Shown here piece after piece: positions 60,476-63,749 of a stretch of 64,000 nt of DNA. The position numbers and the translations under genes are program-made. The DNA comes from Haloarcula sp. CBA1129 (GTDB taxonomy: Archaea > Halobacteriota > Halobacteria > Halobacteriales > Haloarculaceae). Location: positions 434,001 to 498,000 of the forward strand of contig NZ_RKSM01000003.1 of the NCBI RefSeq assembly GCF_008729015.1. Direction: 5' to 3'. Each line of letters begins with the position of its first letter. Position 1 is the stretch's first letter. The notes beneath the pieces are model-generated. The model had not been told where the DNA came from, did not search any database, and saw nothing but the letters and a program-made list of their open reading frames with translations.

Positions 60476-61684
60476 CTACAGCACCCCCGCGACGCTGAGC
60501 AGCGTTCGAACCCCGAGCCACACGACGATGAGCGTCACGATAACGCCAAGCGCGTTCGCTACCGACCCGTTCGTGTACTCTCCGAGGAGATCCCGCTGGT
60601 TCATCGCGTATATCAGGAATACAGCGACGATTGGCAATAAAATCCCGTTGACAACCTGTGCGAACACGATGATCTGGACGGGACTGCCACCCAGCAACAC
60701 CGAGAGAACCCCGACCCCGAGGATGGTCCCCCAGACGGCGCGGAACTGTGTGCTCTGCATATCCGAATCCCAGCCCAGTGCACCCGTGGTCGCCCACGCG
60801 CCCGCAAGCGGTGCTGTCGTCGCGCTCGTAAACCCGGCAGCGAATATGCCGATGCTGAAGAACAATTCGGCGTACGGACCGGCGATGGGTCGCAACTGTT
60901 CGGCCATCTGGCCGATATCGCTGATCTGCGTCCCCGGCTCGAAGGCCGCGGCCGCGGTCACCATGATCGTGATCGTGATCACGCCCCCAGCAACGATTGA
61001 CAGCACTGTGTCGATACGTGAGTGGCCGATATCCTCGGGACCGCTCCACCGCTCCTGAACGTTACTCGCGTGCAGGAACAGGTTGTACCCGACGATGGTC
61101 GTCCCGATGAGGCCGGTGATGAGATACAGCGACCCCGAGGGGATACCGGGGACGAACCCCATCGCAATCGCACCGGGATCGGGGCCGATGAGAATCGCCG
61201 ATGCCACGAACGAGAACGCCATCACGGCGACCAAGCCGATGAGGGCTCGCTCGATCAGTTTGTACCGGCCAGTGTACAGCAGGAGCCCGGCGACGAGTCC
61301 AATCACGACGCCCCACACCGTCGAGTCGATACCCGTGATGGTCGCGAGCCCTGCGGCACCGCCGAGGATATTCCCGGCCTCGTAGGCGGCAGTCCCGACG
61401 CCGATAGCGCCGACGACAAGGAATATACTCACGTATTCGACGATCTGATTGTCGAACCGCTCCCGGAGTGCTTCGCCGAGTCCTTCGCCCGAGACAAGGC
61501 CAAGTCGCGCGCTCATCTCTTGAAGCACAATCGTTGCCACAATCGAGAAGACCATTGTCCATAGAAGCGCATAGCCGAACTCCGCTCCGGTGACGCTCGC
61601 AGTCGTGACCGTGCCTGGGCCGATGAACGCGGCGGCGACCATCGCTCCCGGGCCGACGGCTTTGAGTCGTTTCGTAATGCTCAT
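60476..61684 (-). CDS. NRAMP-fold transporter lacking the canonical metal ligands
   Basis: This 402-residue membrane protein has the LeuT/NRAMP fold with about eleven helices. Canonical NRAMP metal transporters have DPGN in TM1 and a Met in TM6 (..MPHN..). Here TM1 reads GPGT (residues 22-25) and TM6 reads IVGYN (Val198, Tyr200), so Asp, Asn and Met are all absent. The rest (EFGYALLWTMVFS, QEMSARLGLVSGEGLGEAL) is clearly NRAMP. Its stop abuts the hyuA start. I infer it imports the hydantoin-like or oxoproline-like substrate of HyuAB rather than Mn2+ or Fe2+. NRAMP-like genes beside oxoprolinase genes are also known in bacteria such as Bacillus subtilis (ycsG, from memory). Confidence 0.85.
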   Translation of the reverse strand: MSITKRLKAVGPGAMVAAAFIGPGTVTTASVTGAEFGYALLWTMVFSIVATIVLQEMSARLGLVSGEGLGEALRERFDNQIVEYVSIFLVVGAIGVGTAAYEAGNILGGAAGLATITGIDSTVWGVVIGLVAGLLLYTGRYKLIERALIGLVAVMAFSFVASAILIGPDPGAIAMGFVPGIPSGSLYLITGLIGTTIVGYNLFLHASNVQERWSGPEDIGHSRIDTVLSIVAGGVITITIMVTAAAAFEPGTQISDIGQMAEQLRPIAGPYAELFFSIGIFAAGFTSATTAPLAGAWATTGALGWDSDMQSTQFRAVWGTILGVGVLSVLLGGSPVQIIVFAQVVNGILLPIVAVFLIYAMNQRDLLGEYTNGSVANALGVIVTLIVVWLGVRTLLSVAGVL

Positions 61685-61846: not shown

Positions 61847-62392
61847 TCACGGGTCCTGTTCTCTCAAGAGTACCTTCGAAACGCTCTCTTCGATCTCGAT
61901 CTCGAAGGGAAGGTCGGCGATGCTCCCGCGAATGAACCGGATCATCAACCACCGCACTGACTCGGACGGGAACACCACGTGGAAACTTCCCTTCTCATCC
62001 CGTCGAACGGTCAGGAAGCCACACAGCGAGAGCCACTCGAGCACGTCTTCGAGCGAATTGAACCGTTCGGCATACTCTTGGGCGTGGTACTGCGCCACCT
62101 GATCGATCATTTCGAGAGTCGCCTCGTCCCGGTCCGCTGGATCAGTAAACTGGCTCAGGAGTGCATGCAGTAAGTCGATATCCAGCAGTACGTGTTCGCC
62201 CGTCGAGAGCATCTCGTAGTACGTCTGGAGGTGGTCGCTGTCGCTCGCGTGCGCTGAATCGAAGTTCGCCGCGTAGAACGCGATTGCCTCGCGGATCAGT
62301 TGGCTTTGACTCTCCCCAGTTCGGTCGGTCAACCCTTCTAACGTCTCCTTGGTCTCCTCGTCGAGAGAGACGGTGACGCGGTCGGTTGGCAT
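61847..62392 (-). CDS. Ribbon-helix-helix DNA-binding protein with a C-terminal sensor-like domain
   Basis: This 181-residue protein has an N-terminal RHH (CopG-type) strand and helices, MPTDRVTVSLDEETKETLEG, RTGESQSQLIREAIAFYA. The C-terminal 130 residues are helical then beta-rich (LEWLSLCGFLTVRRDEKGSF), resembling small haloarchaeal regulators. It would dimerise and bind short inverted repeats. I start at the ATG at 62392; an ATG at 62407 adds five residues. Its position between the NRAMP-hyuAB operon and the glutamate dehydrogenase suggests either as target; no operator was recognised. Confidence 0.78.
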   Translation of the reverse strand: MPTDRVTVSLDEETKETLEGLTDRTGESQSQLIREAIAFYAANFDSAHASDSDHLQTYYEMLSTGEHVLLDIDLLHALLSQFTDPADRDEATLEMIDQVAQYHAQEYAERFNSLEDVLEWLSLCGFLTVRRDEKGSFHVVFPSESVRWLMIRFIRGSIADLPFEIEIEESVSKVLLREQDP

Positions 62393-62495
62393 AGTGGCCC
62401 TCGTCACTGGATGGCCTTAATATCGTGTCGTTTGGTGACAGAGACCTCTCAGACCGCAGCAAGAACGGCGCGTCTGGACGGCATCCGGAACCTGA

Positions 62496-63749
62496 TTACG
62501 GCCAAGTCCCGCTCTGTTCGCCGGCGTTCATGACCCGCTGGAGTGCAACGACGTACGCGGCGGTTCGGAGCGACGGGAGGTTCCGCTCCTCGTAGGCATC
62601 GACGAGGTTCTCGAACTGGTCGACGATAATCGAATCCAGTTCCTCGTTCACGCGCCCTTCGGACCAGTAGAAGCGCTGTCTGTTCTGGACCCATTCGAAG
62701 TACGACACGATGACGCCGCCGGCGTTCGCGAGGATGTCCGGAATGACCAGTGTCTCGCGGTCACTGAGAACATCGTCCGCGGCGGGAGTGATCGGGCCGT
62801 TTGCGGCCTCAGAGATGACGTCGGCGGAGATATCATGCGCCAGCGACTCGCCGATGGCGTTTTCGAGTGCGGCCGGGATCAACAGGTCGACGTCGAGTGT
62901 GAGCAGTTCCTCGTTCGTGAGTTCCCCCTCGGCCTCCGGATAGCCGACGACGCTCCCGGTTTCGCGTTTGTAGTCCTTGACCGCGACGGGGTCGAACGAC
63001 GTTTCGCTGTAGATAGCTCCGCTCGAATCGGAGACAGCGACGACGTTGGCACCCATCTCGTAGATGAGCTTCGCCGCGATCCAGCCGGCGTTCCCGTAGC
63101 CCTGAACCGCGACTGTCGCGCCTTCGAGGTCCTTGTCGAGATACTCGAAGGCTTCACGCGCCGCGACGACCGTCGACCGCCCGGTCGCTTCGACGCGGCC
63201 CTCGCTGCCACCGCTTGCGAGGTCTTTCCCGGTTATCACGCCGGGCTCGGTCGTGTTTTCGAGTGTCTCGTAGGTGTCCTTGATCCAGTTCATCTCGCGC
63301 TGGCCCGTGTTGACATCGGGTGCGGGCACGTCGCGGTCGGCACCGATCAGCGGCGTCAGTTCCTTCGCAAACGACCGCGTGACGCGTTCGAGTTCGCTCT
63401 CCGAATAGTTACTCGGGTCGATGACGATGCCACCTTTCCCCCCGCCGAGTGGGATATCGCTCGTCGCCGTCTTGTAGACCATCCACCCGGAGAGCGCCTT
63501 GACCTCGTCGCGGTCCACCTGTGGGTGATAGCGGATGCCGCCCTTGTACGGGCCACGGTCGCCGTTGAACTGTGATCGATAGGCCCGGAACACCTCGACC
63601 GACCCGTCATCCATCTCGACAGATAGGTTCGTTTCAAGTATCCGCTCTGGGGTTTTCAACCGTTCCAGTTGTCCCTCTGAGATGTCTACATATTGTGCTG
63701 CTGCATCGATCTGCGTTCGCAGACTTTGGTACGGATTTACATCAGACAT
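62496..63749 (-). CDS. gdhB: Glutamate dehydrogenase (Glu/Leu/Phe/Val dehydrogenase family)
   Basis: This 417-residue oxidoreductase interconverts glutamate and 2-oxoglutarate with NAD(P)H and ammonia. KGGIRYHP with the substrate-binding Lys69, a second Lys93, and the catalytic Lys105 in GGGKGGI are in place. The Rossmann motif is [16 protein letters not shown], and [15 protein letters not shown] is the family hallmark near the end. Haloarchaea have several gdh paralogues with different cofactor use; the name gdhB is by resemblance. I start at the ATG at 63749 (MSDVNPY). It could feed or drain nitrogen from the oxoprolinase/aminotransferase reactions nearby. Confidence 0.9.

Follow-up and report, generated by a model that had tools for sequence, protein, structure and literature searches.

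The 64,000-nucleotide stretch of Haloarcula sp. CBA1129 DNA analysed here, referred to as the window, is part of a 529-kb contig in a genome of 4.05 Mb. It carries a gene for an NRAMP-family permease in an operon with two genes of the hydantoinase/5-oxoprolinase type. In order of transcription on the minus strand, the genes encode a GdhB-like glutamate dehydrogenase, a CopG/RHH-family protein, the NRAMP protein, HyuA and HyuB (Table 1). The start codon of hyuA begins on the base that follows the NRAMP stop codon (a 0-bp junction), and hyuA and hyuB overlap by 4 bases. The ATP motifs of HyuA (DVGGTFTDV, DMGGTSSDV and GATPGP) are intact, and HyuB holds the Asp/His/Asp/His metal motif described for CapB (PMC8453981). 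A preliminary description of this DNA had reported an NRAMP-fold gene in the order NRAMP-hyuA-hyuB with zero-base and four-base junctions; its coordinates, motifs and junctions were all found to be correct.

Table 1 Features of the transporter locus, with positions numbered from the first letter of the window
Feature	Positions	Strand	Evidence
NRAMP-family (PF01566) permease, "orphan" GxxT-TxxV type, 402 aa, ATG start	60476-61684	minus	ORF, Pfam, alignment, AlphaFold2
TM1 GPGT, residues 22-25, in place of metal-binding DPGN	61610-61621	minus	alignment
TM6 GTTIVGYN, residues 194-201, in place of GATVMPHN	61082-61105	minus	alignment
hyuA, ATP-binding subunit of the hydantoinase/5-oxoprolinase/caprolactamase family, 664 aa	58481-60475	minus	profile and motif search
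hyuB, metal-site subunit, 540 aa	56862-58484	minus	profile and motif search
CopG/RHH-family protein, conserved 5' of the transporter, candidate regulator	61847-62407	minus	profile search, locus comparison
GdhB-like glutamate dehydrogenase, upstream, same strand	62496-63746	minus	profile search

An orthologue group at 53-100% identity was found in approximately 85 of 292 haloarchaeal genomes, below which there was a gap down to approximately 36% identity. A protein 98.5% identical to the window transporter is encoded on plasmid pNG700 of Haloarcula marismortui. Of 51 haloarchaeal orthologue loci, 47 had NRAMP, hyuA and hyuB in this order on one strand; among the four exceptions, one was cut by a contig end, one had hyuAB approximately 3 kb away on the opposite strand, and two had no adjacent hyuAB. 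The RHH gene was present in 46 of the 51 loci. A C-terminal region of approximately 130 aa in the window RHH protein has no Pfam match and, as part of a conserved neighbour, might sense the substrate. Glutamate dehydrogenase was considered as a conserved partner and rejected, since it was nearby in the loci of only a few relatives; in one of these (L044:7783-9060) its gene separates the RHH gene from the NRAMP gene and shares their strand.

A gene of the arylmalonate decarboxylase/Asp-Glu-hydantoin racemase superfamily was located near the transporter in 28 of the haloarchaeal loci that were clustered, usually directly 3' of hyuB, and is absent from the window. It might encode a 5-oxoproline or hydantoin racemase. 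One such gene, at L038:11944-12690, belongs to the arylmalonate decarboxylase/maleate isomerase/racemase superfamily, and in another locus (L089) the NRAMP gene is followed by a racemase-superfamily gene without hyuAB. No additional enzyme, carbamoylase included, recurred in the haloarchaeal operons. The nine paralogous haloarchaeal NRAMP loci had no hyuAB nearby. Eight of these nine paralogues (L091-L099) lack DPGN and are of the GPGS, GPGA or GSGS types, so that haloarchaea hold several ligand-less NRAMP subfamilies, without assigned functions, besides that of the window transporter.

The window protein belongs to the PF01566 superfamily by both score and fold. It matched the full Pfam Nramp profile with a score of 348 bits, where the curated cut-off is 29.8, and its AlphaFold2 model (pLDDT 91, pTM 0.90) has the NRAMP/LeuT fold. 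The model aligned with NRAMP structures at TMq values mostly of 0.83-0.88, and the value for an integrative YcsG model (B. subtilis) was 0.83. The protein fell below the NCBIfam cut-offs for MntH (NF001923; 194 of 430 bits) and TIGR01197 (111 of 272.5 bits) and passed that for NF037982 "Nramp_1" (110 bits against 50), which explains its automatic "metal transporter" name. The sole other PF01566 match in the genome, at G000:C1:2094070-2095071, is non-canonical in a different manner, with GPAT in TM1 and GGAVHIT in TM6, and the genome thus seems to be without a canonical DPGN/MPH NRAMP.

In metal-transporting NRAMPs, helix 1 carries DxxN and helix 6 carries AxxM (PMC8806188), and the helix-3 Glu corresponds to E134 of DraNramp (PMC12873925). 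Alignment with DraNramp, B. fragilis Nramp and EleNRMT placed G22, T25, T195 and V198 of the window protein at the canonical D, N, A and M positions, giving GxxT and TxxV in place of the Slc11/NRAMP signature, and further placed Y200 at the TM6 His and N105 at the TM3 Glu. This alignment with metal transporters, which the preliminary description had proposed as a check, bore out its observation that GPGT replaces DPGN and that Val replaces the TM6 Met. The TM6 Ala of canonical NRAMPs gives a backbone carbonyl to the metal, so the side-chain ligands lost number three (D, N and M) and not four. The earlier statement that all main metal ligands are replaced thus holds for these three side chains, and requires the further qualification that an acidic residue is kept in TM3 at E102, which is Glu or Gln across the clade and Asp at the DraNramp equivalent.

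G22, T25, T195 and V198 were invariant across 21 aligned haloarchaeal sequences, and this constancy, together with the conserved gene order, shows that the arrangement is no accident. Throughout the wider clade in the aligned set, G22, T195, V198 and Y200 were constant, four bacterial members have Ser instead of T25, the only variant there, and one haloarchaeal member has Asp instead of N105. Invariance in the 80 loci of the public-genome scan is partly by construction, since the scan patterns were drawn from helices 1 and 6, whereas the haloarchaeal orthologues came from a whole-protein search, so that motif invariance among them is not.

The scan, which began with a Pseudoalteromonas member as the first sequence, yielded 80 loci, 78 of them non-haloarchaeal, and the clade includes members from haloarchaea, Bacteroidota, Bacillota and Pseudomonadota. 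A homologue of pxpA, pxpB or pxpC was the immediate same-strand neighbour of the transporter gene in 31 of the 80 loci, mostly within 0-50 bp, with neighbour identities established by profile search on representatives and assigned to the remainder via sequence clustering. In two pxp loci analysed with NCBIfam and Pfam, PxpA and a PxpC-type domain were found in both and PxpB in one. PxpABC constitutes the prokaryotic 5-oxoprolinase (Niehaus 2017, as cited in PMC13274462 and PMC8453981). In place of pxp genes, two Bacteroidota loci have a fused 1252-aa HyuA-HyuB protein encoded approximately 20 bp downstream of the transporter, and in genome G476, a member of the Alteromonas order, a fused HyuA-HyuB enzyme of 1206 aa is encoded 45 bp from the transporter. 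The N-terminal sequence of the latter presumably resembles that of the eukaryotic-type 5-oxoprolinase. A DUF2891 family protein (L197:4869-5984 and related proteins) adjoins the NRAMP-pxpABC operon in approximately 12 Bacteroidota loci, mostly directly upstream.

A tree of 80 sequences was examined, phylogeny being another of the checks proposed in the preliminary description. The loci with a complete pxpABC set, all 31 of them, fall in one group (support 100/96), which also takes in the haloarchaeal clade and the two Bacteroidota members beside the fused enzyme. The haloarchaeal hyuAB-linked clade (100/99) joins the pxpABC-linked Natroniella and Alkalihalobacillus proteins (96/93) and nests within the pxpABC-linked part of the tree, and the fused HyuA-HyuB pair lies among pxpABC-linked Bacteroidota (enclosing group 96/89). 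The neighbouring enzyme thus changed type at least twice; its labels require only two changes on this tree, the root of which is uncertain, such that gain and loss of an enzyme type are not separable with confidence. The simplest account is that the transporter was kept to one reaction while the adjacent enzyme was replaced twice.

The distribution of the transporter across genomes was compared with that of PxpA and HyuB. Among 198 genomes of one bacterial order, 18 carry the transporter, and 17 of these encode PxpA; of the 180 others, 94 do (p = 0.0003 by Fisher's test, a value that ignores shared ancestry). The eighteenth transporter-bearing genome is G476, which has no PxpA and has the fused HyuA-HyuB enzyme next door. 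For the 25 genomes in which the transporter has no directly adjacent pxp gene, PxpA was encoded elsewhere in 24, and the twenty-fifth has HyuB. In the genome of the window, PxpA was not found, and the single HyuB is that of the NRAMP operon. HyuAB and PxpA were expected to be distributed in a complementary manner across haloarchaea, but this was not the case; instead, the transporter gene co-occurs with pxpA above expectation (approximately 20 of 36 PxpA genomes) rather than replacing it. No NRAMP gene adjoined haloarchaeal pxpA at the 20 loci checked.

The clade adjoins several different enzymes of the 5-oxoprolinase type, and for this reason we propose that the window protein is probably a secondary permease for the import of 5-oxo-L-proline (pyroglutamate) and that HyuAB would be an ATP-dependent, two-subunit 5-oxoprolinase. 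We infer 5-oxoproline transport, its import direction and the mode of binding from genome context and sequence. Glutamate and glutamine give rise to 5-oxoproline spontaneously (PMC13274462). It would be taken into the cell by the permease and activated by HyuA at the expense of ATP; ring opening to L-glutamate would fall to HyuB, which retains the metal ligands described for caprolactamase (PMC8453981). The GdhB-like enzyme would consume the glutamate that 5-oxoprolinase produces, which lends weak support to this assignment. In amino-acid carriers of the APC type, a glycine-rich break in helix 1 is a carboxylate-binding element. By analogy, the glycine-rich unwound TM1 of the window protein, with GPG in place of DPG, may bind the carboxylate of the substrate through backbone amides, and the conserved Y200, N201 and N105 may line the substrate site. 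We suggest that GPG in this position would suit a carboxylate-bearing substrate. The claim that the protein carries an organic cyclic amide, made in the preliminary description, is well supported by these results; the substrate, given there as a hydantoin or 5-oxoproline-like compound, is narrowed to 5-oxoproline by the pxpABC and fused HyuA-HyuB neighbours.

It is unlikely that the cargo of the permease is a different cyclic amide (another lactam, or a hydantoin with a 5-substituent or an N-methyl group), in which case HyuAB would act as a hydantoinase or lactamase and the product of the racemase-like gene as a hydantoin racemase. The nearest solved relatives of HyuA and HyuB are an N-methylhydantoinase and caprolactamase, and the substrates of the HyuAB family include caprolactam, hydantoins and 5-oxoproline, among which sequence by itself does not decide. 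The ATP motifs of HyuA and the metal ligands of HyuB are likewise common to caprolactamase and hydantoinase and are not specific to 5-oxoprolinase, and the racemase-superfamily gene near the transporter in 28 haloarchaeal loci, usually after hyuB, is compatible with a hydantoin or some other chiral substrate as well. However, hydantoin use would also need a carbamoylase, and apart from the racemase superfamily neither this nor any other additional enzyme family recurs in the operon, which makes hydantoin less likely; the pxpABC genes beside the closest bacterial relatives also point to 5-oxoproline.

We consider it quite improbable that the protein is still a divalent-metal importer that feeds Mn2+ or Zn2+ to a metal-dependent HyuB or PxpA. 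HyuB-type subunits, and probably PxpA, do use metal (PMC8453981), and EleNRMT moves Mg2+ through an altered site (PMC8806188). Moreover, Mn2+ import was reported for MumT of A. baumannii (PMC5050338) and YcsG of B. subtilis (PMC10448178), two proteins of the ligand-less PxpT clade, so the absence of DxxN and AxxM may not exclude metal transport. Yet even EleNRMT keeps the TM1 Asp, whereas Gly occupies this position in every clade member checked and the TM3 Glu has become Asn, and a role in metal supply leaves the linkage to just one enzyme class unexplained. Export of 5-oxoproline or of another product, or a role as a sensor, is more improbable still: the direction of transport is not readable from sequence, but the operon partners are catabolic and the tested analogue PxpT was needed for growth on external 5-oxoproline (PMC13274462).

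If 5-oxoproline is the substrate, databases misname a large clade as "Nramp family divalent metal transporter", the "orphan" branch of the family gains a substrate, and a function is suggested for haloarchaeal HyuAB. The literature on ligand-less NRAMPs is split between Mn2+ import (MumT and YcsG) and 5-oxoproline import (YcsG and PxpT). A second, separate clade that stays faithful to 5-oxoprolinases while the enzyme type changes adds weight to the 5-oxoproline side and provides tractable proteins to test. The result also bears on the origin of the metal site within the amino-acid-transporter fold. The protein had been presented initially as an NRAMP re-tooled for an organic compound, which is unproven; Nramp-related proteins have been placed outside the canonical metal carriers in published phylogenies (PMC12873925 and PMC9606685), and the metal site may therefore be the derived state. 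We tentatively entertain the broader idea that the whole orphan outgroup consists of 5-oxoproline (cyclic amide) permeases, with the PxpT clade another such group, and that organic-solute transport may be old and the metal site later.

Among known systems, canonical MntH/NRAMP proteins such as DraNramp have the fold in common with the window protein at 24-26% identity, but every side-chain metal ligand, together with the TM6 His and the TM3 Glu, is replaced in the latter. EleNRMT, an NRAMP-related Mg2+ transporter, also has the fold (TMq 0.88) and a non-canonical site, but retains the TM1 Asp in its DxxG-TxxA/T motif and carries hydrated Mg2+ (PMC8806188); the GxxT-TxxV motif sets the window protein apart from this class. 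HyuA and HyuB have domains and catalytic motifs in common with the CapAB caprolactamase/N-methylhydantoinase/5-oxoprolinase family, yet scored far under the NCBI equivalog cut-offs for caprolactamase.

The window protein is not the first case of its kind, and that an NRAMP relative serves 5-oxoproline is an idea already published: C. glutamicum PxpT and B. subtilis YcsG were linked to this compound (PMC13274462, citing Niehaus 2017), and deletion of pxpT stopped growth of C. glutamicum on 5-oxoproline, which complementation restored (PMC13274462). PxpT, YcsG and MumT resemble the window protein in family, in Gly for the TM1 Asp, in GN in TM3, in the TM6 Tyr and in an operon with pxp-type genes. 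They differ in having GxxF-GxxG rather than GxxT-TxxV and in an identity to the window protein of 21-24%, as judged at equivalent positions from stand-ins, namely NRAMP-pxpA-locus proteins of Klebsiella, Bartonella, Shinella and Lactiplantibacillus and homologues from Acinetobacter and Ilyobacter. The same stand-ins served for the alignment with NRAMP-like neighbours of oxoprolinases that had been proposed at the outset, in which the PxpT-type proteins also proved to be without the metal ligands. A primer-derived 22-mer of C. glutamicum pxpT had no match in public genomes, and a PxpT-type protein had none among PDB sequences. Defined by grouping with the NRAMP proteins of GntR-NRAMP-pxpA loci, the PxpT type forms a separate clade on a long branch with 100% support, and the window protein lies outside it. 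One PxpT-type NRAMP, on Klebsiella plasmid pA2508-emrE, lies in an operon with pxpA, hydro-lyase, urea-amidolyase-like and biotin carboxylase genes; it occurs on 93 Klebsiella plasmid records and is commonly annotated as a metal transporter.

The residues of the window protein correspond to those of the "orphan" Slc11 outgroup of Cellier, within PF01566 (PMC10606218, PMC9606685). As quoted in the text of PMC10606218, rather than from Cellier's own sequences, the substitutions are Gly for Asp and Thr for Asn in helix 1, Tyr and Asn in helix 3 (Y-N with an extra Gly), Thr for Ala together with V-Y in helix 6, and A-N-G in helix 10. All match the clade, and the window protein has G22, T25, Y101, N105, T195, V198, Y200, A342, N346 and G347 at these positions. 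The available sections of these two papers assign no substrate to the outgroup, and no mention of NRAMP and hydantoinase together was found in the literature searched. What is added here to the PxpT/YcsG precedent is the linkage of this orphan clade to 5-oxoprolinases and its assignment to 5-oxoproline, the HyuAB partner and the enzyme swap.
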